Shown: in pieces, positions 17,471-31,962 of the stretch
Position numbering within the stretch: the stretch's first letter is position 1
Layout: every line of letters begins with the position of its first letter
From: Acidobacteriota bacterium
GTDB taxonomy: Bacteria > Acidobacteriota > Thermoanaerobaculia > Gp7-AA8
Direction: 5' to 3'
Length of the DNA: 32,144 nt
Assembly (NCBI GenBank): GCA_021781455.1
Contig: JAJXWV010000058.1
Span: forward strand, 1-32,144
The notes under the pieces: generated by a model
Told to the model about the DNA's origin: nothing
The model's input: the letters and a program-made list of their open reading frames with translations, nothing else
Databases searched by the model: none
Program-made: the position numbers and the translations under genes

Positions 17471-18811
<1,341 letters not shown>

Positions 18812-18929
18812 CCCTTCACTCCGGTCTCGCGCGCGACGCATTGCGGGCGGCGGTGGTCGCGGCGGGTGAAGTTCTTGCAGCGGTCGCGCCCGGTTGAAAA
18901 GGAGCCGCCCGTGACGGGTGAAAACCGTG

Positions 18930-18981: not shown

Positions 18982-18996
18982 TCGAGAGTGATTTTG

Positions 18997-20085
18997 ATGC
19001 CCTCGAGTTTGCGCGCACCCCGCCGCCGGCGTCGCCCCACCGCCGTCACGATCCATGACGTGGCCGCGCGTGCCGGCGTGTCGGTGGCCACGGTTTCCCG
19101 GGTCCTGAACCGCAAGGCTCTGGTCCGCGAAGAGACCTCGCGTCAGGTTCTGGAAGTGGCTCGCTCCCTTCATTACGTTCCGAACATCGCCGCGCGTGCG
19201 CTCAGCATTCGCCGCAATCACACCATCGGCATCGTCCTTCCCGACGTGCACGGCCAGTTCTTCTCGGAAGTGATCCGGGGCATCGACCTGGCGGCACGCC
19301 GCGCCGGCTATCACATCCTCGTTTCCGGCTCGCACAGCGACCGCGACGAGATGCTGGCGGTGCTCGAGGCCATGCGCGGCCGCGTGGACGGGATGGTGGT
19401 GATGTCGCCCGACGTGGCCGTCACGGCGCTGCGCGAGCAGTTCGTATCCGCTCAGCCGCTGGTGCTGCTCAACTCCCCGGCCGCCGGCCACGACGCCATC
19501 ACCATCGACAACCACGGCGGCGCGCAGGCCATGATGCGTCACCTCGCGGAGCTCGGGCATACGCGCATCGCCTTCGTCAAGGGCCCGGAGGAGAATGCCG
19601 ATGCCACGGAGCGCCTGCGAGCCTATCGGCGCGCTCTGCGGCTGATCGGGGCGGTCCGTTCCGCCGAGCTGGAGTTTGCCGGGGATTTCAGCGAGGAGTC
19701 CGGATTTGCGGCGGGCCTGCAAATTCTCGCGGCGACGCCGCGGCCCACGGCCGTTTTCGCCTCCAACGACGCCATGGCCGTGGGCGTGCTTTCAGCGTTG
19801 AGCGAGAGCGGCTTCAGCGTGCCGCGCGATTTCTCCGTGGTGGGGTTCGACGACATCCCCATCGCCCGTTACCTCGCGCCTCCGCTGACCACGGTGAAAG
19901 TGGACATGGCCGAGTTAGGCCGGCGCGCCTTCGAGCTGCTCTTCGAGTCGATCGGCGGCGGTGCGGCCCACACCCCGCGACACGAGTGCATTCCCACTAC
20001 TCTCGTCGTGCGGCAATCGTGCGGCATGCCGAGCGCCTCCCGACGAACGAACCCAACGAGTGGAAAAGCGAAAGCAACGCATTAG
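18997..20085 (+). CDS. LacI-family transcriptional regulator
   Basis: A 362-residue repressor. The N-terminal helix-turn-helix is typical (TIHDVAARAGVSVATVSRVL, residues 18-37), followed by the hinge PNIAARALS and a periplasmic-binding-protein-like sugar domain (TIGIVLPDVHGQFFSEVIRG, FVKGPEENADATERLRAY, AVFASNDAMAVGVL, VVGFDDIPIARYL). A basic stretch precedes the HTH. I chose the ATG at 18997, with GAGAG 8 nt upstream; a GTG at 18988 would add three residues. A LacI-type palindrome sits 15 nt before the start. It is followed after 16 bp by the TonB-dependent receptor gene, so it probably senses the imported sugar and controls the whole locus plus the divergent GH1 gene. Confidence 0.92.
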   Translation: MPSSLRAPRRRRRPTAVTIHDVAARAGVSVATVSRVLNRKALVREETSRQVLEVARSLHYVPNIAARALSIRRNHTIGIVLPDVHGQFFSEVIRGIDLAARRAGYHILVSGSHSDRDEMLAVLEAMRGRVDGMVVMSPDVAVTALREQFVSAQPLVLLNSPAAGHDAITIDNHGGAQAMMRHLAELGHTRIAFVKGPEENADATERLRAYRRALRLIGAVRSAELEFAGDFSEESGFAAGLQILAATPRPTAVFASNDAMAVGVLSALSESGFSVPRDFSVVGFDDIPIARYLAPPLTTVKVDMAELGRRAFELLFESIGGGAAHTPRHECIPTTLVVRQSCGMPSASRRTNPTSGKAKATH

Positions 20086-20101
20086 AAGAAGAGGAGGACA
20101 C

Positions 20102-22981
20102 ATGAGAGGAAGATCCGCCCCCCGGCTGTTTGTGCTGTTCCTCCTGCTGCTCGCCTTCGTGGTCGCTCTGCCGCTGTGCGCGCAGACGACGACGGCGACG
20201 ATCCGCGGGAAAGTCGTCAACCAGAGCGGAAACACCGTTTCCAATGCGGAGATCAACGCCGTCTCCACCTCCAGCGGCTTCGTGACCACCGTGCACTCGC
20301 GCGCGGACGGCACCTACACGCTGGCCGGCCTCACGCCCGGCGAGTACAACATCGTCGTGGCCGCGCAGGGTTACGAGCCGAGGTCGCAGACCGTCACGGT
20401 CAGTGTCGGCCAGACCCTCGACGCGAACCTCAGCATCAGCCCGACCGCACTCGTGACCGAGTCGATCACGGTGGTCGGCAATCAGCTGATCGAGACGAAG
20501 AGCTCGGAGATCGGCACGAACGTCTCGAGGCAGCAGATCGAGAACCTGCCCCAGGACAATCGCAACTTCCTCAACTTCGCGACCATGGCCCCGGGCATCC
20601 GCATGTCGAATGACCCCACCCGGAAGGTCATCGCCGGCGACGCTCAGGACCCGGAGATGACGAACGTCTTCATCGACGGCGTCAGCACCAAGAACGACGT
20701 CCTTCTGGGCGGCACGTCGGGTCAGGACTCGAGCCGCGGCAATCCCTTCCCGCAGAACGCCGTGCAGGAGTTCCGCGTCATCACCCAGAATTACAGCGCG
20801 CAGTACGACCACGCCTCGAGCGCGATCATCACCGCCGTCACCAAGTCGGGCTCGAACGAATTCAGCGGCCAGGCCTTCGGCTACTACCAGCCGAAACAGT
20901 GGGTCACCTCGACGGCCAAGGGCTTTCAGTACTCGACGCTGACCAACAACGCCGCTTATCACCGAATCCAACCCGGACTGAGTTTCGGCGGTCCCATCAT
21001 CCGCGACCAGCTGAACTTCTTCTTCGCCTATGAGGGCGACGACGAGCATGCCACGACACCAGTGGCGATCCCGTCGCAATACGCCAGCCAGTTCGGGTCC
21101 AACGCCGGCGTCTTCGCCAGTCCCTTCAAATCGAATCTCGCATTCGGAAAGCTGAGCTGGCAGCCATCGAAGAGCCAGTTGATCGACTTCAGCGGCAATT
21201 ACCGCCGCGAGCATGAGACCCGCGACTTCGGCGGCGGCACGACCTACCAGTCGGCGACCGATCTTCGCAACTGGGTCTATGGCGCTACCCTGCGCCATCA
21301 GTGGAACAACGCCAGCGCCCTGAACGAAGCAACCCTGGCCTTCTCGAAGTACGCCTGGAATCCGACGCCGCTCAACCCAAACCTGCTCGGCCTGAACTTC
21401 GAAGGCTGCTGCCGGCTCGGCGGTAACAGCACGACCCAGGAATTCGCACAGCGCCGCATCGAGCTCCGCGACAACTACAGTCTCGCGCCCATCACCTTCC
21501 ACGGGCAGCACAGCTTCCAGGTGGGCGGCAACCTCGATTTCATGCGCTACAACGTGAACAAGAGTCTCTTCGGGAATCCCGAGTTCGATTTCAGGAACGA
21601 CGCGGCGAATGGGTTCTCATACACGGGGTGCACGCCCTCGAACGTCGGAAGCGTGGACTGCGAGCCGTACCAGGCCCAGTTCGGTTTCGGCAACCCGTTC
21701 CTCGCGGTCACCAACAACGAATACGGCATCTATGGACAGGACAACTGGCGCGTCAACGATCGCCTGCAGTTGAATCTCGGATTGCGGTGGGACTATGAGA
21801 GCCACATGCTCGACGAGAATTTCGTCACCCCCGCGGACATCGTTGCCGCATTGAAGGGGAAGACGTTCCAGGCGAACGGAATGAACATCACCATTCCGGA
21901 CTCGTATTTTTCCAACGGCAGCCAGAGGAAGCCGTATAAGAGCGAGTTCCAGCCGCGCGTCGGTTTCTCCTATGACATCTTCGGCGACAGCAAGTCCGTC
22001 GCATTCGGCGGGTTTGGCCGTTATTACGACCGTCTTTATCTGAACTCCACGCTCGATGAGCGGTACCGGCTTCAGTACCCGGTCTATAACATTCAGTTCT
22101 CGCCCGACGGCCGTCCCGGCACGATCAAGTGGGATCCTTCTTATCTCAGCGTCGCCGGTCTGAACAGCCTGATTGCGTCGGGGCAGGCTCACCCCGAAAT
22201 CCATCTGCTGAGCAATAACACCAAGCCGCCGTACTCGAACCAGTGGAACATTGGCTACCGCCAGGCGATCAGCACGTGGCTGGCCTCGGCGAGCTACAAC
22301 GTGGTGCGCGGCTATCGCGGCATTACATGGGTATCGGCAACCGGCACCTGCTGTGCGGCGCTCGCGCCCGGCTACGGAGCGGTCATTCTGTCCGATCCTG
22401 TCGGCAAGAGTTACTGGTACACCGGTGAGAGCCTGACGCTCGACCGTCCGTACACGTCCCAATCGCGTTGGGGCGTGCATCTCGTTTACACGCACTCCAA
22501 GGCGCTCCAGAACGGCAATGACCTCTTCAGCCTCGATCTGCCGAGCGCGGCCGCGTATGCAAGGCACCCGGTGAACGGGTCGGAGCCGAATCACTTCGTC
22601 GGCACGGGCATGGTCGGGCTTCCACTCGAGGTCATGTTCAGCACGACCGTGACGTGGGGCACCGGCCCGGCAGTGGACGTCTTCGACCTCTCGCAGGGAT
22701 TTGACCTTGCGGGTCACATAAAGACCGGCGTGATCAACCGGGCGGTCTATCCGTCGGGTGGTTACAGGACCGTCGATTTCCGCCTGGCCAAGGACTTTCC
22801 GACGTATGGGAAGGCCAGCGTCGGCCTGTCGCTGGAAGTCTTCAATGCGTTCAACGCCAAGAATTACGGTTGCCTGAGCAACTTCCTCGGGCCTGGGGAC
22901 AACCCGGCCAACCTCGGTCAGCCCGGCTGTGTCGTCAGCCTCGGCCGTCGTGAACAGGTGGGCTTCAAGGTCAACTTCTAA
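20102..22981 (+). CDS. Oar-type TonB-dependent receptor
   Basis: A 959-residue outer-membrane receptor. The signal peptide (about residues 1-27, ending PLCAQ) is followed by a carboxypeptidase-regulatory-like beta sandwich (about 30-105, TIRGKVVNQSGNTVSNAEI, DGTYTLAGLTPGEYNIVV), then the plug (about 125-260, TNVSRQQIENLPQDNRNFL, VFIDGVS, VQEFRVITQNYSAQYDH) and a beta barrel ending in the Phe typical of outer-membrane proteins (GFKVNF). This architecture is the expanded receptor type of Acidobacteriota and Myxococcota. It should take up large ligands using TonB energy. A strong GAGGAGG site lies 4-10 nt before the ATG. From position in the operon the ligand is probably the glycan cut by the downstream enzymes. 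Confidence 0.9.
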   Translation: MRGRSAPRLFVLFLLLLAFVVALPLCAQTTTATIRGKVVNQSGNTVSNAEINAVSTSSGFVTTVHSRADGTYTLAGLTPGEYNIVVAAQGYEPRSQTVTVSVGQTLDANLSISPTALVTESITVVGNQLIETKSSEIGTNVSRQQIENLPQDNRNFLNFATMAPGIRMSNDPTRKVIAGDAQDPEMTNVFIDGVSTKNDVLLGGTSGQDSSRGNPFPQNAVQEFRVITQNYSAQYDHASSAIITAVTKSGSNEFSGQAFGYYQPKQWVTSTAKGFQYSTLTNNAAYHRIQPGLSFGGPIIRDQLNFFFAYEGDDEHATTPVAIPSQYASQFGSNAGVFASPFKSNLAFGKLSWQPSKSQLIDFSGNYRREHETRDFGGGTTYQSATDLRNWVYGATLRHQWNNASALNEATLAFSKYAWNPTPLNPNLLGLNFEGCCRLGGNSTTQEFAQRRIELRDNYSLAPITFHGQHSFQVGGNLDFMRYNVNKSLFGNPEFDFRNDAANGFSYTGCTPSNVGSVDCEPYQAQFGFGNPFLAVTNNEYGIYGQDNWRVNDRLQLNLGLRWDYESHMLDENFVTPADIVAALKGKTFQANGMNITIPDSYFSNGSQRKPYKSEFQPRVGFSYDIFGDSKSVAFGGFGRYYDRLYLNSTLDERYRLQYPVYNIQFSPDGRPGTIKWDPSYLSVAGLNSLIASGQAHPEIHLLSNNTKPPYSNQWNIGYRQAISTWLASASYNVVRGYRGITWVSATGTCCAALAPGYGAVILSDPVGKSYWYTGESLTLDRPYTSQSRWGVHLVYTHSKALQNGNDLFSLDLPSAAAYARHPVNGSEPNHFVGTGMVGLPLEVMFSTTVTWGTGPAVDVFDLSQGFDLAGHIKTGVINRAVYPSGGYRTVDFRLAKDFPTYGKASVGLSLEVFNAFNAKNYGCLSNFLGPGDNPANLGQPGCVVSLGRREQVGFKVNF

Positions 22982-23041: not shown

Positions 23042-23063
23042 GTTTCTTCTTTGCAGGTTGTTC

Positions 23064-24515
23064 ATGTCCCGCAAACTCGCCGTCCTGCTGATCTTCCTCG
23101 CGCTGTTCTCGTGCGCGAGCGATCCCGCACGCCACCGCGCCGTCACCGTGCCGGACGACGCCGTCCTCGCCGACCTTCAACAGCGGACGTTCCGCTTCTT
23201 CTGGGACACGGCCGATCCGGGAACGCATCTGATTCCCGATCGCTGGCCGACGCCCTCGTTCTCCAGCATCGCTGCGGTGGGATTCGGGCTCACCGCGTAC
23301 GGCATCGGTGCGGAGCGGGGGTGGGTCACGCGCGAAGAGGCGGCCGCGCGGACGCTGGCCACGCTGCAGTTCTTCCTCGATGCGCCAATGGGGCCCGACC
23401 CGACGGGCATGACGGGATACAAGGGCTTCTACTACCACTTCCTGGACATGCAGACGGGCACCCGCTTCAAGGATGTCGAGCTGTCGACGATCGACACGAC
23501 ACTCCTGCTCGCCGGTGTGCTTTTCTCCGAATCGTATTTCGACCGCGACAACCCGACGGAGCTGTCGATCCGGCAGGCCGCCGAAGCGCTCTACCAGCGT
23601 GCGGACTGGACGTTCTTCCTGGCGCGGCCACCGCTTGTCAGCATGGGCTGGACACCCGAGAACGGGCTGCACACCTACGACTGGCACGGCTACGACGAGG
23701 GGATGATTCTCTACATCCTCGCCCTCGGTTCTCCCACCCATCCCATCGATCCGGCGGCGTGGAGCGCGTGGACCGCGACGTACAAGTGGGAGTCGTGGTA
23801 CGGCCAGGAGTACGTCACGTTCCCGCCGTTGTTCGGGCATCAGTTCTCGGAGGTCTGGGTCGATTTCCGCGGCATCCAGGACGCGTTCATGCGCGCCCAC
23901 GGGATCGACTACTTCGAGAACTCGCGGCGCGCGGCCCTCTCGCAGCATGCCTACGCCATCGCCAATCCCGGAGGCTGGCGCGGCTACGGCGAGAACATGT
24001 GGGGCCTCAGCGCGTGCGACGGGCCGCTGGACGGGACCCTCACCATCGACGGCCGCTCGCGGAAGTTCATCACCTACGGCGCGCGGGGAACCGCGCCGGC
24101 CTGGACCAACGACGACGGGACGATCACGCCGATGGCTGCCACGGCGTCGATCGCCTTCGCACCGGAAATCGCGCGTCCGGCGATCATGGAAATGCGGAGA
24201 CGCTTTGGCGATCACCTCTATCAGCGGTACGGTTTCGTCGACGCGTTCAACGAGACGATCGATTTCGACACACCGGTGAAGATGGGCCACGTCGTCCCCG
24301 GCGTGGGCTGGTTCGACGGCGACTACCTCGGCATCGACCAGGGGCCGATCGTCTGTATGCTCGAGAACTACCGCAGCGGATTGATCTGGAACACGATGCG
24401 CAAGAATCCGCACATCGTGCAGGGGCTGAAGCGCGCGGGGTTCACGGGCGGGTGGCTGGATGTCGCAGGGACGCGCAGCAGCGCGTCCGCAACTCTGGTC
24501 GGGGCACACAACTAG
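23064..24515 (+). CDS. GH144-like glucanase lipoprotein
   Basis: A 483-residue lipoprotein: a short signal peptide with lipobox LFSC, then an (alpha/alpha)6-type enzyme of the 'glucoamylase family' (Pfam Glycoamylase), which includes GH144 endo-beta-1,2-glucanases. Family blocks visible: TFRFFWDTADP, SSIAAVGFGLTAYGIGAERGW, GFYYHFLDMQTGTRF, ELSTIDTTLLLAG, HGYDEGMILYILALGSPTHP, PPLFGHQFSEVWVDFRGI and IDYFENSRRAALSQ. It should cut beta-glucan in the periplasm or at the outer membrane. Beta-1,2 specificity is the best guess; related GH families share the fold, so the linkage is not certain. The ATG at 23064 is chosen over a TTG at 23058. It lies in the operon between the receptor and the sugar-binding protein. 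Confidence 0.85.
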   Translation: MSRKLAVLLIFLALFSCASDPARHRAVTVPDDAVLADLQQRTFRFFWDTADPGTHLIPDRWPTPSFSSIAAVGFGLTAYGIGAERGWVTREEAAARTLATLQFFLDAPMGPDPTGMTGYKGFYYHFLDMQTGTRFKDVELSTIDTTLLLAGVLFSESYFDRDNPTELSIRQAAEALYQRADWTFFLARPPLVSMGWTPENGLHTYDWHGYDEGMILYILALGSPTHPIDPAAWSAWTATYKWESWYGQEYVTFPPLFGHQFSEVWVDFRGIQDAFMRAHGIDYFENSRRAALSQHAYAIANPGGWRGYGENMWGLSACDGPLDGTLTIDGRSRKFITYGARGTAPAWTNDDGTITPMAATASIAFAPEIARPAIMEMRRRFGDHLYQRYGFVDAFNETIDFDTPVKMGHVVPGVGWFDGDYLGIDQGPIVCMLENYRSGLIWNTMRKNPHIVQGLKRAGFTGGWLDVAGTRSSASATLVGAHN

Positions 24516-24516
24516 A

Positions 24517-24598
24517 AATGTCGAATGTTGAATGAGAAAGCCATGAAGCGCCGCCTGCATTCAACATTCAACCTTCGACATTCAGCATTCACCATTCT
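24517..24598. repeat. Word palindrome (GAATGTTGAATG type) in binding-protein start
   Basis: GAATGTTGAATG (24523-24534) pairs exactly with CATTCAACATTC (24558-24569), and AATGTCGAA (24517-24525) with TTCGACATT (24574-24582). The arms repeat the word TTGAATG. The right arm is translated as part of the signal peptide of the sugar-binding lipoprotein. The same word forms another element at 27617-27696. Confidence 0.85.
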
Positions 24599-25847
24599 TC
24601 TTCTGGCGTGCTTATCACTCCTGTCGTGCAGCCGCGCAAGATCAACCGGCACGCACATCGAGTTCTGGGGTCTCGGCCGTGAGGGCGAGGTCGTGGCGGA
24701 CATGATGCCGGAGTTCGAGCGGCAGAACCCGGGCATCCGGGTCACGGTTCAGCAGATTCCCTGGACGGCGGCGCACGAGAAGCTGCTGACGGCGTACGTC
24801 GGCGAGGCGGTCCCGGACATCGCCCAGATGGGCAACACCTGGATCCCGGAGATGGTGGCCATCGGCGCGCTGGAGGACCTGACGCCGCTGGCGGCCAAGG
24901 CGGCGAACATCGACCCGAACGACTATTTCTCCGGCATCTGGGCGACGAACATCGTCGACAGGAAGCTCTACGGGATTCCGTGGTACGTCGACACGCGCGT
25001 CGTTTTCTACCGCAAGGACATGCTGGCCGCCGTCGGCTACTCCTCGCCGCCGAAGACGTGGGCGGAATGGGCCGATGCCATGCAGCGCATCCAAAGCCAG
25101 CACAAGGCGCGCTTCGCCATCCTGCTGCCGACGAACGAATGGGAGCCGATCGTGCAGCTCGCCCTGACGAACGGCTCGACGATCCTCAACCCGGCCGGAA
25201 CGCGGGGAGCCTTCGAGGAGCCGCCTTTCGCGGGTGCCTTTCATTTCTACCTGGACATATTCCGCCGCGGATTCGCACCGGCCATCAGCAACACCCAGAT
25301 CGCCAACCTCTATCAGCAATTCGCGCAGGGCGATTTCGCCATGTACATCAGCGGACCGTGGAATGTCGGCGAGTTCCGCCGCCGCCTTCCTCCGGCGATG
25401 GACGGGAAGTGGTCGACCATGCCGTTGCCGGCGCGCGATGCGCAGCATGGCCCGACCGGCGTGTCGATGGCCGGCGGGTCGAGCTTCGTCGTCTTCAAGT
25501 CGTCGAAGAACAAGGAAGCGGCGATGAAGCTGATCGAGTACCTGTCGCAGCCGGCCGTGCAGGTGCGCTTCTATGAGGTGACCGGCGATCTTCCGGCACG
25601 GCGCTCCGCCTGGCGCTCTCCGCTCCTGGCCAACGACCCGCTGTTCCCCGCTTTCCGCGAGCAGCTCGAGCGCGTGGCCCCGCTTCCGCAGGTGCCGGAG
25701 TGGGAGGAGATCGCCACGACCATCTACGAGCACGGAGAGGCGGCGGTTCGCGGGAAGTTCACCGAGGCGCAGGCGCTCGCCGACCTCGACCGCACCACCG
25801 ATCGCATCCTGGAAAAGCGCCGCTGGATTCTGGCGCACCGCCCATGA
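24543..25847 (+). CDS. Sugar ABC transporter substrate-binding lipoprotein
   Basis: A 434-residue family-1 extracellular solute-binding protein (MalE-like). The mature domain starts THIEFWGLGREGEVVADMMPEFE and has VPDIAQMGNTWIPEM, YGIPWYVDTRVVFYRKDM, the LYQQFAQGDFAMYISGPWN hinge segment and a GGSSFVVFKSSKN strand, all typical of oligosaccharide binders. The signal peptide ends in a lipobox (SLLSC). Its n-region (HSTFNLRHSAFT) is encoded by the arm of a word palindrome, which is odd. Starts are possible at 24525 and 24543; the latter has a weak purine-rich site upstream and a better-shaped signal peptide. It precedes two permeases with a 4-bp overlap. The ligand is probably a beta-glucan oligosaccharide, inferred from neighbours. 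Confidence 0.9.
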   Translation: MKRRLHSTFNLRHSAFTILLLACLSLLSCSRARSTGTHIEFWGLGREGEVVADMMPEFERQNPGIRVTVQQIPWTAAHEKLLTAYVGEAVPDIAQMGNTWIPEMVAIGALEDLTPLAAKAANIDPNDYFSGIWATNIVDRKLYGIPWYVDTRVVFYRKDMLAAVGYSSPPKTWAEWADAMQRIQSQHKARFAILLPTNEWEPIVQLALTNGSTILNPAGTRGAFEEPPFAGAFHFYLDIFRRGFAPAISNTQIANLYQQFAQGDFAMYISGPWNVGEFRRRLPPAMDGKWSTMPLPARDAQHGPTGVSMAGGSSFVVFKSSKNKEAAMKLIEYLSQPAVQVRFYEVTGDLPARRSAWRSPLLANDPLFPAFREQLERVAPLPQVPEWEEIATTIYEHGEAAVRGKFTEAQALADLDRTTDRILEKRRWILAHRP

Positions 25848-26716
25848 GATCCGAGACCCGCGCCGCCCTCCTCTTCCTCGCGCCCGCGCTGACGCTGATC
25901 GCGGTGTTCTTCTTCCTGCCGGTGATCGCGGGGTTCGCGCTCAGCGTCACCGACTTCGACATCTACTCGCTCGGCAACTACCACAACATCCGATTCATCG
26001 CTCTTCAGAATTACGGGCAGCTGCTTCACAACGCCACGTTCTGGACGGCGCTGCTGAACACGCTCTATTTCTCGGTGGTGGGAGGGCCGCTGACCGTGGC
26101 CGTCTCGCTCGCCGCGGCGCTGCTCGTCAACGCCAGGCTGGCGCGCTACAAGCCGATCTTCCGCACCGTCTACTTCGCCCCGGTGGTGACGACGCTCGTG
26201 GCCGTGGCCGTGGTGTGGCGGTACCTCTACCACCCGCGTTTCGGCATGATCAATCTCGCGCTGGCGAGGCTCGGCATCCACGGCCCCGACTGGCTCGGCG
26301 ATCCGAAGTACGCCATGCCGGCCATCATCCTCCTCGCGGTCTGGAAGAACTTCGGCTACAACATGATCATCTTCATCGCCGGGCTGCAGGCCGTGCCGGA
26401 AGAGCTGTACGAGGCGGCGCGCATCGACGGAGCGGGAGCGTGGAAGCAATTTCGCCACGTCACCCTGCCGATGCTCGGACCGACGTTCCTGTTCGTCGGC
26501 ATCGTGACGGCGATCGGCTACCTGCAGCTGTTCGCCGAGCCGTATGTCATGACCCGCGGAGGGCCGCTCGACCGCACCCTCTCCGCGGTCATGCTCATGT
26601 ACGAGCAGGGCTTCCGATGGTGGCGGATGGGATACGCGGCGGCCATCGCCCTGATGCTGTTCTTCGTCATCGCCGCGGCCACGGCCATCCAGATGCGTTT
26701 CCAGGAGAAGCGATGA
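25844..26716 (+). CDS. Sugar ABC transporter permease, MalF/UgpA type
   Basis: A 290-residue inner-membrane permease with about six hydrophobic segments. The N-terminus (AALLFLAPALTLIAVFFFLP) and the cytoplasmic EAA loop (EELYEAARIDGAGAWKQF, then VTLPMLGPTFLF) are typical of the CUT1 sugar importers. With the next gene it forms the sugar channel. The ATG overlaps the binding-protein stop (ATGA at 25844-25847), and its own stop overlaps the next start in the same way. No repeat-derived sequence is present. It is probably specific for the oligosaccharide delivered by the preceding binding protein. Confidence 0.92.
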   Translation: MRSETRAALLFLAPALTLIAVFFFLPVIAGFALSVTDFDIYSLGNYHNIRFIALQNYGQLLHNATFWTALLNTLYFSVVGGPLTVAVSLAAALLVNARLARYKPIFRTVYFAPVVTTLVAVAVVWRYLYHPRFGMINLALARLGIHGPDWLGDPKYAMPAIILLAVWKNFGYNMIIFIAGLQAVPEELYEAARIDGAGAWKQFRHVTLPMLGPTFLFVGIVTAIGYLQLFAEPYVMTRGGPLDRTLSAVMLMYEQGFRWWRMGYAAAIALMLFFVIAAATAIQMRFQEKR

Positions 26717-27612
26717 ACGGAGAATCTCCGCGTGTGGGACCGGCTTTCCAACCGGTCCCCTCAGAGGACAGGCTGGAAAGCCTGTCCCACACCAGAGTGC
26801 ACGGCCGCGCGATTCTGCTGCATGTCGCACTCGTCTCGGGAGCCGTGCTGACGCTGTTCCCGCTGCTGTGGATGATCTCCGCGTCGTTCATGGCTTCCGG
26901 AGAGGCGACCACGTACCCGCCCCACCTGGTGCCGCACGCGGCGTCGTTCGACGAGTACCGGCAGCTGTTCACGCGGCTCAACATCGGCCGCGCTTTCTTC
27001 AGCAGCACCGTGGTGGCGGTCGGGGTGACGGTGCTGTCGCTGCTCTTCAACTCCATGGCCGGCTACGCCTTCGCCAAGCTGCGATTCAGAGGGCGCGAGC
27101 GGATCTTCGGCATCCTTCTGTCGGCACTGGTGATCCCGGCGCAGGTCGGCATGCTGCCGCTGTTCCTCCTGCTCAAGGAGATGCACCTCGTCAACACCTA
27201 CTGGGGCGTGATCATCCCGGGGCTGGCCAGCGTGTTCGGGATCTTCCTGATCCGGCAGTTCATGCTGTCGATCCCGCAGGAACTGCTCGAGGCGGCGCGC
27301 ATCGACGGCGCGGGGGAGCTGCGGATCTACTGGTCGATCGTGATGCCGCTGGCGCGGCCGATCCTGGCTACGCTGGCGATCTTCACCTTCATGTCCACGT
27401 GGAACGACTTCATGTGGCCGCTCATCGTGCTGACCGACCAGTCTCACTACACGCTCCCGGTCACGATCGCCAGCCTCGTCGGCGAGCATGCCCAGGATGT
27501 CGAGCTGATGATGGCGGGCTCGGTCGTGACCGTGCTCCCTGTGCTGGCGCTGTTCCTCTTCCTGCAGCGTTACTACATCGCGGGGCTGATGATGGGGAGC
27601 GTGAAGGGATGA
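26713..27612 (+). CDS. Sugar ABC transporter permease, MalG/UgpE type
   Basis: A 299-residue CUT1 permease. The EAA loop is clear (QELLEAARIDGAGELRIYW, then IVMPLARPILAT), with TFMSTWNDFMWPLIVL and a C-terminal YYIAGLMMGSVKG. The first about 28 residues are abnormal: VGPAFQPVPSEDRLESLSHT is the translation of two repeat hairpins (26732-26792), inserted between the start codon and the first membrane helix (ILLHVALVSGAVLTLFPLLW). In normal relatives this cytoplasmic tail is shorter. The frame is kept and the transporter core is intact, so function is probably preserved. ATGA overlap with the preceding gene. Confidence 0.92.
   Translation: MNGESPRVGPAFQPVPSEDRLESLSHTRVHGRAILLHVALVSGAVLTLFPLLWMISASFMASGEATTYPPHLVPHAASFDEYRQLFTRLNIGRAFFSSTVVAVGVTVLSLLFNSMAGYAFAKLRFRGRERIFGILLSALVIPAQVGMLPLFLLLKEMHLVNTYWGVIIPGLASVFGIFLIRQFMLSIPQELLEAARIDGAGELRIYWSIVMPLARPILATLAIFTFMSTWNDFMWPLIVLTDQSHYTLPVTIASLVGEHAQDVELMMAGSVVTVLPVLALFLFLQRYYIAGLMMGSVKG
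26732..26792. repeat. Double-hairpin repeat translated in malG start
   Basis: Hairpin 1: GGGACCGG/CCGGTCCC (26736-26743 with 26752-26759). Hairpin 2: GGACAGGCT/AGCCTGTCC (26766-26774 with 26779-26787). The outer GTGTGGG (26732-26738) pairs with CCCACAC (26786-26792). Hairpin 2 is identical to the one at 17439-17460. Confidence 0.88.
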
Positions 27613-27616
27613 AACC

Positions 27617-27696
27617 GAAATGTTGAATGCGGAATGCTGAATGTTGAATGTGAATCCGGAACTGCGTCTCATTCAACATTGAACATTCAACATTTC
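27617..27696. repeat. Word palindrome (GAATGTTGAATG type)
   Basis: GAAATGTTGAATG (27617-27629) pairs exactly with CATTCAACATTTC (27684-27696), and AATGTTGAATG (27640-27650) with CATTCAACATT (27670-27680). It starts four bases after the malG stop and fills the gap before the large glycosidase gene. Confidence 0.88.
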
Positions 27697-27713
27697 GCTT
27701 CTGCGCCGGGCCG

Positions 27714-30539
27714 ATGAAGAGCGAGAAGGACCAACGGACCACCGCCACGATCGTCGCGCTGCTGACGATCTTCGTCGCGGTCAGGCTCCAGGCTCGAGTC
27801 CCCGAATGGACTGCGCATCCAGCCGACGGAGTGGAGATGCACCTCAGTCGCGAGGGCGACGCCAACCGCCTCGACTTCGATTTCCACGGGCACGCCGGCT
27901 ACGCCATCGCACGGCGCAGCGTCGATCTCGAGCTGCCGCCGAATTACAAGTTCACGTTCCGCATCCGCGGGAACGCGCCGGCGGAGAATCTCGAGCTCAA
28001 GCTCATCGACGCCTCCGGCGACAACGTCTGGTGGCTCAACCGCCGCAATTTCGTTTTCCCGCGTGAATGGTCCACGGTCGACACGAAGAAGAGGCAGATC
28101 TCGTTCGCGTGGGGGCCGCTGGGAGGGGGCGAGATTCGCCGCGTGGCGTCGATGGAGGTGGTGGTCACCGCCGGAAGTGGTGGCCGCGGGACGGTCTGGT
28201 TCACCGATCCGCAGCTCGAGGCGATGCCCGTGGTCTCGAACGAGCCGCTGCGATTCGCGAAACCGGTGATCGACCTCGGTGTCCGCCGGGAGATCGGAGG
28301 TCTGGTCATCGACTGGCGCGCGCGGCCTCCTGCGTTCCGCCTCTCGCTCGACGGAGTGGTGCAGACGCGGGCAACGTCGAAATTCGTCTGGCTGCCCGAC
28401 GTGGAAGCGCGGACGATCTCGATCGAGGGCGGCCAGGTGCGTGAGGTCATCGTCGAGCCGCCGACGTGGGCCCCTACCGAGAACGACTTCTACGCCATCG
28501 TCGCGCGCGATGCTCCACGCGGTCGCTATCCGCGCTACCTCATCGGCGAGCAGCCGTACTGGACGATCGTCGGGGCTGACCGCGCAGAGCCGGAAGCGCT
28601 GATCGGTGAGGACGGGAACGTCGAGCCGTTCAAGGGCGGGTTTTCGATCGAGCCGTTTCTGGTCGTCGACAGAAAGCTGGTCACGTGGGCGAACGCCTCG
28701 ATCGCGCAGTCGCTCGAGGAGGGCGATCTGCCGATTCCCTCGGTGACATGGCGGGCGCGCGGCGTGACGATGACGGTCACGGCCGCGGTGAGCGCTTCGT
28801 CGATGCTGCAGCTGCACTATCGGATCCGGGGCTCGAAACGCGTGACGCTGCTGCTGGCTGTCAGGCCGTTCCAGGTGAATCCGTCGACGCAGTTTCTGAA
28901 CACGCCCGGCGGTGTCTCACACATCGACAGCATCGACTATCGCGACGGTCGGATCGTGGTCAATCGGAAGCAGTTCGTAAACGTGCTGACACGGCCCGCC
29001 CGGTTCGTCCGCGGCAGCACGCTGGGGCTCGATGACGCCAACGCGCTCGTCTATCCCGGCGCGAAGGACGTCGAGCTCAACGTGCCGCTGCAGCGCGGTG
29101 CGCGGGCCGAGCCGATCGCAACGATCGCTGCCAGCTGGCGGGCGAAGATCCGGCACGTCACTGTCGACATTCCCGCGGAGCCCGCGATCGCGAACACGCT
29201 GCGCACCAACATTGCCTACATCCTGATCAACCGCGATGGCGCCGCGTTGGAGCCCGGCTCGCGTTCCTACGAGCGCGCATGGATCCGCGACGGCTCGCTC
29301 ATCGCTTCCGTGCTTCTCCGCCTCGGTGATGCCGCCGACGCGAAGGAGTTCGCGGAGTGGTTCGCGCCTTACCAGTTCCCGGATGGGAAGGTGCCGTGCT
29401 GCGTCGACAGCCGCGGCGCCGACCCGGTTCCGGAGAACGACAGCCACGGCGAGCTGATCGACCTCGTCGCCGAGATCTGGCGCACGACGCACGATGAGTC
29501 GTTCGTGCGCCGCATGTGGCCGCACGTCGACGCCGCGGCGCGTTACATCCAGAAACTGCGCAGCGAGAACCACGGCCAGTTCGAGGGACTGCTCACCGAG
29601 TCCATCAGCCACGAGGGGTATTCGGCAAAACCGATGCACTCGTACTGGGACGATTTCTTCGGCGTGCGCGGCCTTGAAGACGCTGCCGAGCTGGCCGGCG
29701 TGTCAGGCCTGAGCGACCGGCAGAAGGAGCTTCAGGGGCAGGCCGCATCCTTCCGTCACGACCTCGCCGCGTCGATCGCGCGGAGCATGAGCGAGCACCA
29801 CATCGACTACATCCCCGGATCCGCGGAGCTCGGCGACTTCGACGCCACCTCCACGGCCATCGCCGTCTCGCCGCTCGAGCTGACCTCGCTCCTTCCGCCG
29901 GCTGCGCTCCGGGCGACCTTCGACCGCTATCTCGCCGAGTTCCGCGCCCGCCGAAAACTCTGGAGCACAACCTCTCAGCCTGGCTCCGGTTCCCGCGCGA
30001 GTGAGGTCTACACCCCGTACGAGCTTCGCAACGTGGGCGCCTTCGTGCGCCTCGGGCGGCGTGCCGAAGCGCACGAGCTGCTCGATTTCTTCATGGGCGA
30101 CCGGCGTCCTGCGGCGTGGAACGAGTGGGCGGAGGTCGTGCCCCGCGACAAGCGCGCACCGCACTTCCTCGGCGACATGCCGCATTCCTGGGTGGGCTCG
30201 GACTTCATGCGCTCTGTCCTCGATTTCTTCGCCTTCGACCGCGAAGACGGCGCGCTGGTCGTGGGCGCCGGCGTCCCGGAGAAATGGGTCAACGGCTCGT
30301 CGATCCACGTCGGGCCGCTCTCCACGCACACCGGAACGATCGATGTGCGCATGCGAGGCGACGCGCAACAGGTGACGGTCGAGTTAGGCGGCACTGCGCA
30401 TCCGCTCGCCGGCTTCGTGGTTCGTTCGCCCTACGACCGGCCGATTCGCGAGGCGCGAATGAACGGTGTGGTCGTGGGCCACGGCACTTCCGAGGTTCTG
30501 GTCTCGCGACTGCCGGCGAACGTCGAGCTGTTGTACTGA
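27714..30539 (+). CDS. Large exported six-hairpin-type glycosidase
   Basis: A 941-residue protein. The N-terminus has a hydrophobic segment (ATIVALLTIFVAVRLQA) fitting a signal peptide or anchor. Residues about 30-165 look like a carbohydrate-binding beta sandwich (YKFTFRIRGNAPAENLELKL, then NVWWLNRRNF). A second beta-rich region follows (about 170-480). The C-terminal half resembles an (alpha/alpha)6 barrel of the six-hairpin glycosidase group: RSYERAWIRDGSLIASVLLR, QFPDGKVPCCVDSRG, ENDSHGELIDLVAEIWR, HSYWDDFFGVRGLEDA and AEVVPRDKRAPHFLGDMPHSW. Asp and Glu residues in these motifs are catalytic candidates. I cannot assign a GH family or linkage. Position as last gene of the glycan operon suggests debranching or trimming of the same glycan outside the cytoplasm. 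Confidence 0.75.
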   Translation: MKSEKDQRTTATIVALLTIFVAVRLQARVPEWTAHPADGVEMHLSREGDANRLDFDFHGHAGYAIARRSVDLELPPNYKFTFRIRGNAPAENLELKLIDASGDNVWWLNRRNFVFPREWSTVDTKKRQISFAWGPLGGGEIRRVASMEVVVTAGSGGRGTVWFTDPQLEAMPVVSNEPLRFAKPVIDLGVRREIGGLVIDWRARPPAFRLSLDGVVQTRATSKFVWLPDVEARTISIEGGQVREVIVEPPTWAPTENDFYAIVARDAPRGRYPRYLIGEQPYWTIVGADRAEPEALIGEDGNVEPFKGGFSIEPFLVVDRKLVTWANASIAQSLEEGDLPIPSVTWRARGVTMTVTAAVSASSMLQLHYRIRGSKRVTLLLAVRPFQVNPSTQFLNTPGGVSHIDSIDYRDGRIVVNRKQFVNVLTRPARFVRGSTLGLDDANALVYPGAKDVELNVPLQRGARAEPIATIAASWRAKIRHVTVDIPAEPAIANTLRTNIAYILINRDGAALEPGSRSYERAWIRDGSLIASVLLRLGDAADAKEFAEWFAPYQFPDGKVPCCVDSRGADPVPENDSHGELIDLVAEIWRTTHDESFVRRMWPHVDAAARYIQKLRSENHGQFEGLLTESISHEGYSAKPMHSYWDDFFGVRGLEDAAELAGVSGLSDRQKELQGQAASFRHDLAASIARSMSEHHIDYIPGSAELGDFDATSTAIAVSPLELTSLLPPAALRATFDRYLAEFRARRKLWSTTSQPGSGSRASEVYTPYELRNVGAFVRLGRRAEAHELLDFFMGDRRPAAWNEWAEVVPRDKRAPHFLGDMPHSWVGSDFMRSVLDFFAFDREDGALVVGAGVPEKWVNGSSIHVGPLSTHTGTIDVRMRGDAQQVTVELGGTAHPLAGFVVRSPYDRPIREARMNGVVVGHGTSEVLVSRLPANVELLY

Positions 30540-30882
30540 GTGGCGCCTGTCATCCTGGACAATTCTCACCACGGAGACGCAGAGACACAGAGGTACACAG
30601 CGCAGGCTCGCTCCGCTCGCCCGCCACCGAAGATGGCCTTCATAGGTCCCCTCGCCCCGTGCGGATCAGTTCCGCGAGGTTGTTCGTCGGCGAGCACGGG
30701 GCGAGGGGACCGGTCGCACTGTCACTTGTGGCAAGGAAATCCGCGCACAGCGCGAAAAATCATCTGCTTAGTGGTAGTACAGAGTCTTCTCTGCGAATTT
30801 CTGTGCCTCTGCGTCTCTGTGGTGAACTTTGAACGAAGGCTTGAACGGTCCGGGGTTTCTGCACAGGCCCTTGGGACGACAG
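30540..30882. other. 343-bp gap filled by a nested palindrome
   Basis: No gene is visible in this convergent gap. Nearly all of it is the nested repeat described at 30566-30825, with a few dozen unremarkable bases on each side. No clean hairpin with a T-run is seen for either flanking gene. Confidence 0.7.
30566..30825. repeat. Nested palindrome (CACAGAG outer, GGTCCCCTCG inner)
   Basis: The outer arms 30566-30590 and 30801-30825 match at 23 of 25 bases and use the same CACAGAG/GACGCAGAG vocabulary as the element at 2837-2914. Inside is a perfect 18-bp inverted repeat of unrelated sequence (30645-30662 with 30694-30711). This looks like one element inserted into another. Confidence 0.85.
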
Positions 30883-31962
30883 CTACCCGATCCGCTCTTC
30901 GGTTGTTGCGTCGAAGAGGTGCAGGCGGTCGATCTCGACCTTCATCGGGATGGTTTCGCCGACTTTCGGTGCGCTCTGCGGATCGAAAATCGCCACGAGG
31001 CGCTCGCCTCCGACACTGGCGTAGACGATCGACTCGTGGCCGATCGGCTCGACGATGTCGACGCTGGCCAGGATCGACGCGGTCGGGCCCCTCATCGGCT
31101 TTGATTCGCCGCCCACGTTTTCCGGCCGGACACCCACGACGACCTGACGGCCGGCGCTCGCGGCCTGACGCGCTGCGGCTGGAAGCGGAATCGTGAATGC
31201 CGGTCCGCGAAGCACGGAATCCTCGGCCGTGGTGCGGAAGAGGTTCATCGGCGGCGTGCCGATGAACTGGGCCACGAAGACGTTCGTCGGCTTCGCGTAG
31301 ACCTCCAGCGGTGCGCCGATCTGCTGGATCTTTCCATCGCGCATGACGGCGATGCGGTGGCCCATGGTCATGGCCTCGACCTGATCGTGTGTGACGTAGA
31401 CGGAAGTGGTGCCGAGGGTGTGCTGAAGGCGCGTGATCTCGGCGCGCATCTGCACGCGGAGCTTGGCGTCGAGATTGGAGAGTGGCTCGTCGAAGAGGAA
31501 GACGGCCGGCTCGCGGACGATGGCGCGGCCGACGGCCACGCGCTGTCGCTGTCCGCCGGAGAGGTCTTTTGGCCTGCGGTCGAGCAGGTGAGCGATGCCG
31601 AGGATCTCGGCGGCGTTGGAGACGCGGCGGTTCATGTCTCCGCGTTCGATGTGCCGCATCTTCAGGCCGAACTCCAGGTTCTCGCGCACGGTCATGTGGG
31701 GATAGAGCGCGTAGCTCTGGAAGACCATAGCGATGTCACGTTCTTTCGGCGCGAGGTTGTTGACCACGCGGCCGCCGATCGAGATCGTTCCGTCGCTGAC
31801 CTCTTCGAGTCCCGCGATCATCCGCAGCGCCGTCGACTTGCCGCATCCTGAGGGACCGACCAGGACCATCAGCTCGTGGTCGTCGACGTGGAGGTTGAGA
31901 TTCTCGATGACGGCCACGGAACCGTAGCGCTTCGCTACGTGGGCGAAGGTCACGTCGGACAT
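30883..31962 (-). CDS. Sugar ABC importer ATPase, UgpC/MsmK type
   Basis: A 359-residue ATPase of CUT1 importers. Walker A GPSGCGKST (residues 36-44), Q-loop MVFQSYALYPHMTV, signature [15 protein letters not shown] (134 on), Walker B FLFDEPLSNLDAKLR, switch His in VYVTHDQVEAMTMG, and a C-terminal TOBE/OB domain with VGVRPENV. It would energise the MalF/MalG-type permeases, which lack an ATPase in their operon. It is on the opposite strand, convergent with the glycosidase gene, so it is separately transcribed and may serve several sugar importers, as MsmK does in streptococci. The ATG at 31962 begins MSDVTFAHVAKRYG, matching the family start. Confidence 0.92.
   Translation of the reverse strand: MSDVTFAHVAKRYGSVAVIENLNLHVDDHELMVLVGPSGCGKSTALRMIAGLEEVSDGTISIGGRVVNNLAPKERDIAMVFQSYALYPHMTVRENLEFGLKMRHIERGDMNRRVSNAAEILGIAHLLDRRPKDLSGGQRQRVAVGRAIVREPAVFLFDEPLSNLDAKLRVQMRAEITRLQHTLGTTSVYVTHDQVEAMTMGHRIAVMRDGKIQQIGAPLEVYAKPTNVFVAQFIGTPPMNLFRTTAEDSVLRGPAFTIPLPAAARQAASAGRQVVVGVRPENVGGESKPMRGPTASILASVDIVEPIGHESIVYASVGGERLVAIFDPQSAPKVGETIPMKVEIDRLHLFDATTEERIG

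Follow-up and report, generated by a model that had tools for sequence, protein, structure and literature searches.

The Locus and Its Genes

We analysed a window of 32,144 nucleotides, the whole stretch from position 1 of contig JAJXWV010000058.1 of an Acidobacteriota genome, and focused on an open reading frame (ORF) of 941 residues with an ATG start at positions 27714–30539 of the + strand, referred to below as the target. An earlier note on this DNA had given the same limits and length, which were confirmed. The 291 relatives found and the strong conservation show that the target is a genuine gene rather than a chance ORF. The genes of the locus are listed below (GH, glycoside hydrolase family; ABC, ATP-binding cassette), with the evidence for each in parentheses.

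17471–18841, − strand: GH1 beta-glucosidase-type gene, no obvious signal peptide by eye (domain match)
18988–20085, + strand: LacI-family regulator (domain match)
19961–22981, + strand: TonB-dependent receptor, true start probably inside the ORF (Pfam/NCBIfam scan)
23058–24515, + strand: GH144 beta-1,2-glucanase of the XcSGL type, lipoprotein-like start (PF10091, match to XcSGL)
24525–25847, + strand: ABC importer sugar-binding protein, Xac-MalE/Lin1841-like (matches to 3uor and Lin1841)
25844–26716, + strand: ABC permease 1 (start placed by us within ORF 25700–26716)
26713–27612, + strand: ABC permease 2 (start placed by us within ORF 26215–27612)
27714–30539, + strand: GH15-like glycosidase gene, the target (ORF, relatives, model, motif alignment)
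30883–31962, − strand: MalK-like ABC ATPase (domain match)

The same-strand order is thus LacI regulator, TonB receptor, GH144, sugar-binding protein, two permeases and, in the last place, the target. The earlier note had placed the target at the end of a GH144-like operon, and correctly so: the GH144 product scores 271.9 bits against PF10091, 577 bits against XCC2207/XcSGL (8xul) and 149 bits against the endo-beta-1,2-glucanase 5gzh. XCC2207 is XcSGL, a characterised GH144 beta-1,2-glucanase (PMC12102758). The sugar-binding protein matches Xac-MalE (3uor) with 439 bits and Lin1841, which binds beta-1,2-gluco-oligosaccharides (PMC12369401), with 262 bits. Xac-MalE (3UOR) is described as a putative maltose/trehalose binder with its ligand listed as unknown (PMC7676653); from the operon context, its real ligand may be beta-1,2-gluco-oligosaccharides. 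A literature search by presumed Xanthomonas locus tags in the neighbourhood of the binding protein found no paper. Judged by sequence similarity, the locus has two features of beta-1,2-glucan utilisation, a beta-1,2-glucanase of a characterised family and an importer protein of the Lin1841 type. The GH1 gene fits the same pathway, because a GH1 beta-glucosidase active on beta-1,2-gluco-oligosaccharides has been reported (PMC12369401).

The Target Family

A tblastn search of genome contigs with the target gave 308 pattern matches, 291 of which encode a relative; the best 80 of the 291 were kept, with a best-segment identity to the target of 34–64%. According to their record titles, the 80 loci span 13 phylum-level groups, including Acidobacteriota, Gemmatimonadota, Pseudomonadota, Ignavibacteriota, Bacteroidota and Planctomycetota, plus some unclassified records. 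The alignment of the target with these relatives (81 sequences) is strongly conserved, with many invariant acidic and aromatic residues; R525, D526, C562, D565, E574, D576, H642, S643, Y644, W645, D646 and D647 are identical in all 81. The four motifs singled out in the earlier note, AWIRDGSL, QFPDGKVPCCVD, ENDSHGEL and HSYWDDFFG, are all present and fall within the strongly conserved part. In a maximum-likelihood tree, the target clusters with one Thermoanaerobaculia sequence and another from Acidobacteriota.

The source genome has one copy of the target. A wider profile gave one more weak match there (21 bits, contig C3), which overlaps a GH15 gene that was itself also recovered by a GH15 search. 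Among 100 related genomes, 32 have a family match at E ≤ 0.001, of which three (G004, G008 and G017) are weak, leaving 29; a strong match is present in 14 of the 18 genomes of the source's own taxonomic family.

Several more distant relatives were also observed. A branch at about 233 bits (L122:3745–6522 and L123:7511–10315) carries an N-terminal GH2 sugar-binding domain, and its genomes, G149 and G195, have no GH144 match at E ≤ 1e-20. Two others (L124:8798–11122 and L125:4716–6896), at 50–57 bits and with no Pfam match at E ≤ 0.001, retain R-D, E-x-D, W-D-D and the E807-type glutamate; both adjoin PAS-DUF4388 proteins, and L124 also a GT4 glycosyltransferase. From their sequences, these two form a further uncharacterised GH15-like branch. 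Twelve of 119 Xanthomonadaceae genomes carry a second paralogue (344–376 bits; e.g., L128:13972–17103 and L130:6524–9742); it adjoins LacI/TonB genes in L130 and a GH144 operon in L128, and no clear theme was seen among the neighbours checked.

Fold and Family Placement

None of the Pfam or NCBIfam models reaches its curated cut-off in the target (best Pfam E 0.0067, best NCBIfam E 2.6e-4); matches below the cut-off include PF22422 (MGH1-like, 16.5 bits), TIGR01577 (19.7 bits) and NF041084 (15.9 bits). A single-sequence search of the PDB sequences with the target gave no convincing match. To this extent, the view of the earlier note that no GH family can be named stands, and remote GH15 matches now refine it to a GH15-like clade.

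The full-length target was modelled with AlphaFold2 on the family alignment, with a mean predicted local distance difference test (pLDDT) of 92.3 and a predicted template modelling score of 0.91; residues 466–846 modelled alone gave a pLDDT of 92.5. In VIA-align, GH15 entries from four different enzymes fill the first ten rows for the catalytic domain (Z 31.0–34.8). Dextran dextrinase 9ju0 takes the top row, with Z 34.8, a root mean square deviation (rmsd) of 2.5 Å over 348 residues and 15% identity, followed among the GH15 rows by glucodextranase (Z 32.6), a bacterial glucoamylase (31.8) and isomaltose glucohydrolase (31.0–31.1). It is also rank 1 in Foldseek, both for the full-length model and for the catalytic domain. 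The non-GH15 rows that follow in the domain search are GH116 (Z 30.4), GH125 (30.1), glycogen debranching enzyme (29.8) and GH65 (29.2).

TIGR01577 (oligosaccharide amylase), which we take to be a GH15 model, matches all 81 catalytic domains at E ≤ 0.1 (best 3.9e-14), and PF06202, the debranching enzyme model, matches 28 of the 81 weakly. Profile–profile comparison with three GH15 groups from related genomes gave E values of 3.1e-5, 0.0039 and 8.5e-6, with probabilities of 73, 9 and 83%, whereas the match to debranching enzymes was weak and partial (E 5.9e-4, probability 29%). PF17389, the GH78 six-hairpin domain, has no match in the target at E ≤ 1 (its cut-off being 24.5 bits), and two of nine full-length relatives (L016 and L020) exceed the cut-off. 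GH144-like catalysis was rejected for the target, which has no PF10091 match at E ≤ 1.

The catalytic domain is thus predicted by modelling to be a GH15-type (alpha/alpha)6 barrel, and by sequence comparison the target belongs to a GH15-like, family-level clade for which no characterised member was found. Literature and PDB-sequence profile searches, which did not cover CAZy, returned neither a characterised member nor a description of the family; in the literature on GH195 to GH200, judged by its listings, the only sugar-enzyme item was GH195 (diatom mannan). The clear match to a characterised family with another substrate, which in the earlier note would have spoken against a new activity, was not found, and the nearest characterised proteins are the remote GH15 enzymes.

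The domains of the target are given below; their borders are our own placement on the predicted model.

27714–27797, + strand: putative N-terminal signal peptide or anchor, residues 1–28 (hydrophobic stretch read from sequence)
27801–28229, + strand: beta module 1, residues ~30–172, weakly CBM11/CBM4-like (predicted model)
28251–28463, + strand: degenerate F5/8-type module, residues ~180–250 (relatives' PF00754, family profile)
28530–29108, + strand: large beta-sandwich ahead of the barrel, residues ~273–465 (predicted model)
29109–30251, + strand: (alpha/alpha)6 catalytic domain, residues 466–846 (predicted models, fold and profile matches)
30252–30536, + strand: C-terminal beta domain, residues 847–941 (predicted model)

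The earlier note's two beta-rich modules ahead of the barrel are roughly right, the model giving a beta module, an F5/8-type remnant and a large beta-sandwich. The pLDDT falls below 50 at residues 1–21; the hydrophobic N-terminus, read by eye, suggests that the target is probably secreted or envelope-bound. Beta module 1 has matches below the cut-off in relatives (CBM_11 in 2 of 9, CBM_4_9 in 1 of 9) and a profile match to endoglucanase H 1v0a at E 1.0 only. The F5/8-type module is clearer in the family than in the target: PF00754 exceeds its cut-off in all nine relatives scanned, glucanases and chitosanases in the PDB have F5/8-type domains that match the family profile at 1e-14, and relatives are ~100 residues longer over the same span, partly through a full module, which is shortened in the target and in relative L001. 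Full-length fold matches start at residue 273, with the large beta-sandwich.

Repeats flank the gene on both sides. A 31-nt inverted repeat (84% complementary) built of AATGTTGAATG-type units lies between permease 2 and the target (27613–27700), where it takes up most of the intergenic gap, and is a possible hairpin inside the operon. Just past the target lie an inverted repeat with 44-nt arms (80% complementary, 30566–30825) and a perfect 18-nt inverted repeat (30645–30711); these 3′ repeats may be an interspersed repeat element.

Predicted Active Site

For the active site, we used a profile of 14 sequences, among them the Xanthomonadaceae paralogue and two groups that are more distant. R525, D526, E574, D576, E634, D646, D647, E807 and D821 are invariant in all 14 sequences. 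This profile matches dextran dextrinase at E 1.9e-4, with the W-x-R-D, ENDS and W-(D/E)-D motifs aligned. In dextran dextrinase, W540, R542, D543, W670, E671 and D672 are assigned to subsites −1/+1 and to the acid (PMC12446779); we obtained its numbering here by subtracting 19 from the chain index, a count made by hand. The assignments that follow are predictions from alignment and model.

29286–29291, + strand: R525-D526, predicted −1 subsite, W-x-R-D (aligned to dextran dextrinase R542-D543, invariant 14/14)
29433–29441, + strand: E574-N-D576, part of the ENDS motif common to dextran dextrinase (profile alignment)
29613–29615, + strand: E634, candidate general acid, alpha5–alpha6 loop (invariant; opposite the WE(V/L)R Glu in 2 of 3 GH15 groups)
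29649–29654, + strand: D646-D647 (YWDD), D646 a candidate general acid (invariant; opposite dextran dextrinase E671-D672)
30132–30134, + strand: E807, predicted general base, alpha11–alpha12 loop (SE glutamate alignment; invariant 14/14)

The W523-I-R525-D526 segment aligns with W540 and R542-D543 of dextran dextrinase and with WxRDA in all three GH15 groups. In two of these groups (L082 and L095), E807 stands opposite the SE glutamate and E634 opposite the glutamate of WE(V/L)R, which we take to be the GH15 acid motif. In the third (L110), the alignment stops short of E807, and W645-D646-D647 stands opposite W-E-E. The alignment of D646 both to dextran dextrinase and to L110 retains the preceding Trp. 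Both acid candidates lie in or at the end of the alpha5–alpha6 loop and E807 in the alpha11–alpha12 loop, by our own helix numbering; GH15 catalytic residues are placed in these two loops (PMC12446779), and the combination of an Asp acid with a Glu base is described for the glycogen debranching enzyme (PMC4837477). The alignments support E807 as the predicted base more strongly than either D646 or E634 as the acid. Another candidate base, E770 (TPYE), was rejected: of the four most distant relatives, three (L122, L123 and L125) lack it, while E807 is kept in all; in L124, E770 falls in a gap in a second alignment.

Linkage of the Target Family with GH144

An ORF similar to the GH144 of the window (BLAST E ≤ 1e-8) is present in 63 of the 80 loci and in 56 of the 61 loci of at least 12 kb. 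The best GH144-like match is on the strand of the target in 56 of the 63 cases; nine of the 63 score below 350 bits, six of these being at most 35% identical. A GH1 relative is present in 44 of the 80 loci.

At E ≤ 1e-20, the target profile is found in 11 of 297 Acidobacteriota genomes, the GH144 of the window in 59 and both in 9. Stringent, XcSGL-like GH144 (E ≤ 1e-170, at least 57% identity) is found in 11 of the 297, 9 of which have the target (Fisher 7e-14, for a stringent class chosen post hoc, after the table had been seen). In G250, which has stringent GH144 and no target, the contig ends within the operon, ahead of the position expected for the target.

The second sample comprised 119 genomes of Xanthomonadaceae, the family of the Lysobacter locus L016. 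Here, the target is present in 58 genomes and GH144 in 60, and all 58 target genomes have both; GH144 alone is found in G372 and G470, where in G470 it is only partial. An unsplit main-subfamily copy is present in 55 of the 58 target genomes; in G426 the copy is split between two frames, and the only copy in G376 and G451 is the second paralogue (375 bits), on a different contig from GH144. In 52 of the 55 unsplit-copy genomes, the target and GH144 are on one contig, 5.7–7.0 kb from start to start. The binding protein and both permeases accompany the pair in L127, L128 and L131; in L126, the GH144–target pair is present and ABC genes were not recognised. We conclude that the target family usually travels with an XcSGL-type GH144 beta-1,2-glucanase. 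This close linkage strengthens the suggestion of the earlier note that the target has a new activity on the same glycan, an activity that we infer.

Proposed Role and Alternatives

Our favoured reading, which we consider somewhat more probable than all others together, is that the target is a GH15-like exo-glucosidase in beta-1,2-glucan catabolism. The fold, the motif alignment and the gene linkage of the target were computed; its secretion, substrate, anomer, bond and mechanism we infer. According to this model, beta-1,2-glucan would enter through the TonB receptor and be cleaved internally by GH144, the target would act outside the cytoplasm on a bond left by GH144, the ABC importer would take in beta-1,2-gluco-oligosaccharides, and the GH1 enzyme would convert these to glucose. 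Glucokinase genes lie near several such operons and Entner–Doudoroff genes in two that were examined, neighbours that agree with glucose as the product. The target is probably inverting: R525 and D526 would hold the terminal glucose at subsite −1, and hydrolysis would proceed by a single displacement with inversion, with D646 or E634 in the alpha5–alpha6 loop as the general acid and E807 in the alpha11–alpha12 loop as the general base.

By analogy, the bond cut is most likely alpha-glucosidic, because most relatives that share this arrangement are alpha-glucosidases, some being specific for alpha-1,6 bonds. The substrates of GH15 hydrolases are terminal alpha-glucosides, with specificity for alpha-1,6 bonds in glucodextranase and isomaltose glucohydrolase (PMC12446779). 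In their cyclised forms, beta-1,2-glucans contain an alpha-1,6 link (PMC11842490, PMC11228985), and as it is the sole alpha bond of these glucans described in those texts, we propose it tentatively as the bond that the target cuts. GH144 would open the ring within its beta-1,2 part, exo-beta-glucosidases would trim the chain to the alpha-1,6-linked glucose, and the target would remove that glucose. Literature searches gave no enzyme that breaks the alpha-1,6 bond of cyclised beta-1,2-glucans. It is conceivable, and on balance doubtful, that the target represents a new GH family of exo-alpha-1,6-glucosidases acting on the rings of Xanthomonas campestris, Ralstonia solanacearum and Cereibacter sphaeroides.

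A number of observations weigh against our reading. Similarity to GH15 is remote (~15% identity), with no curated cut-off reached; PF00723 (GH15) gives 11.6 bits over the full length and 13.9 bits for the domain versus a cut-off of 22 bits. The candidate acid is split, E634 being indicated by two of the three GH15 groups and D646 by the third and dextran dextrinase. In the search with the catalytic domain, GH116, which includes retaining beta-glucosidases, has a Z of 30.4 near the lower GH15 rows. In the structural aligner, the full-length model matches the alpha-L-fucosidase 8zbv best (Z 29.2, rmsd 4.4), then a GH95 fucosidase (Z 26.2) and after these many families (Z 25.9–21). PF17389 matches 69 of the 81 domains (best 4.3e-8), versus 43 of 81 for Pfam GH15 (best 4.4e-5). 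As to linkage, the Acidobacteriota genomes G149 and G195 hold distant target relatives (236 bits) without GH144, and operons without the target exist (G372, and G376 and G451, which hold only the paralogue elsewhere). In two annotated operons of this kind, L136 and L138, no alpha-glucosidase stands in the place of the target.

The neighbours annotated in these two loci, beside the beta-1,2-glucan operon (L136:2334–6220 and L138:7242–13116), are glucokinase, 6-phosphogluconate dehydratase and 2-keto-3-deoxy-6-phosphogluconate aldolase, with glucose-6-phosphate dehydrogenase in L138 and tryptophan halogenase in L136. L137 has ORFs of similar size, and in G154 a GH3 gene follows GH144. Overall, the check for a replacement gene was uninformative, neither backing nor countering the alpha-1,6 idea.

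Three other explanations were weighed. The target could be an exo-beta-glucosidase or a sophorose-releasing enzyme on the beta-1,2 backbone, or act on the beta-1,6 glucose branches of E. coli-type periplasmic glucans. The operon does concern beta-1,2-glucan, the literature mentions linear glucans that carry beta-1,6 side chains (PMC11842490, PMC11228985), and (alpha/alpha)6 enzymes of beta bonds exist, with cellobiose phosphorylase and GH116 among the fold matches and GH144 itself having such a barrel (PMC12102758). However, both the catalytic domain and the motifs best match GH15 enzymes, which act on alpha-glucosides, and the locus already holds GH144 for the backbone, with the GH1 relative present as often as counted above; we therefore regard a beta-acting target as rather unlikely.

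It is improbable that the target removes a non-glucose or otherwise linked decoration, e.g., an alpha-L-sugar, as distant kin of rhamnosidases and fucosidases. The breadth of the PF17389 matches across the family (at E ≤ 0.1, and above the cut-off in L016 and L020) would favour this, as would the many alpha-L-fucosidases and rhamnosidases, with human PGGHG, in the top rows of the full-length structural list; but the target itself has no PF17389 match, the best rhamnosidase row for the catalytic domain alone has a Z of 27.1 versus 31.0–34.8 for the ten GH15 rows, and none of the ten annotated representatives of neighbour clusters points to an L-sugar. Slightly more improbable still is a glucose-transferring enzyme rather than a hydrolase, since the gene content of the operon (importer, GH1 and, in places, glucokinase) is suited to uptake and breakdown, even though the Foldseek, structural domain and profile searches all rank dextran dextrinase first, an enzyme whose active site has the same layout and which transfers glucose with retention, and the mechanism of GH15 is not readable from sequence alone (PMC12446779).

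Returning to the GH15-like exo-glucosidase, what is new here is GH15-like chemistry, read from alignments, in a family-level clade with a putative beta-1,2-glucan role; as CAZy was not covered, a recent or unpublished family number is possible. Enzymes of beta-1,2-glucan are still being discovered, and Xanthomonas campestris requires the alpha-1,6-cyclised rings to infect model plants (PMC11842490). With a GH144 companion, a readable predicted active site and no characterised member found, the target family is a direct candidate for assay. The outcome would establish a GH family or broaden GH15, would reveal how bacteria finish degrading these glucans and could provide a tool to open or measure the rings.

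Comparison with Known Systems

The closest systems are the GH15 enzymes, i.e., dextran dextrinase (9JU0), glucodextranase (1UG9), isomaltose glucohydrolase (5Z3A) and the glucoamylases. The target resembles them in its predicted (alpha/alpha)6 barrel, the W-x-R-D at subsite −1, the acidic residues in the alpha5–alpha6 loop and the Glu at the base position in the alpha11–alpha12 loop; it shares the ENDS motif with dextran dextrinase, and bacterial GH15 forms likewise have a domain ahead of the barrel (PMC12446779). It differs in its low identity (~15%), in lying below the Pfam GH15 cut-off, in the candidate acid (D646 or E634), in the extra N-terminal binding-type modules and the C-terminal beta domain, and in the beta-1,2-glucan operon setting.

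The glucosidase domain of the glycogen debranching enzyme (7VMA; PF06202) combines an Asp acid with a Glu base (PMC4837477) and gives a Z of 29.8 to the target domain, but its profile match is weaker than those of two of the three GH15 groups and covers only part of the domain, and it acts on glycogen. Alpha-L-rhamnosidases (PF17389, GH78) and GH95 fucosidases have a six-hairpin domain as the target does and resemble it in architecture over the full length, the fucosidase 8zbv reaching Z 29.2 with the full-length model; they differ in that the target has no PF17389 match and that their catalytic-domain matches rank below GH15. Finally, XcSGL (GH144, XCC2207), whose PF10091 domain sets it apart from the target, is its partner in the operon, with a barrel of the same general type and, as we propose, the same polymer as substrate (PMC12102758).

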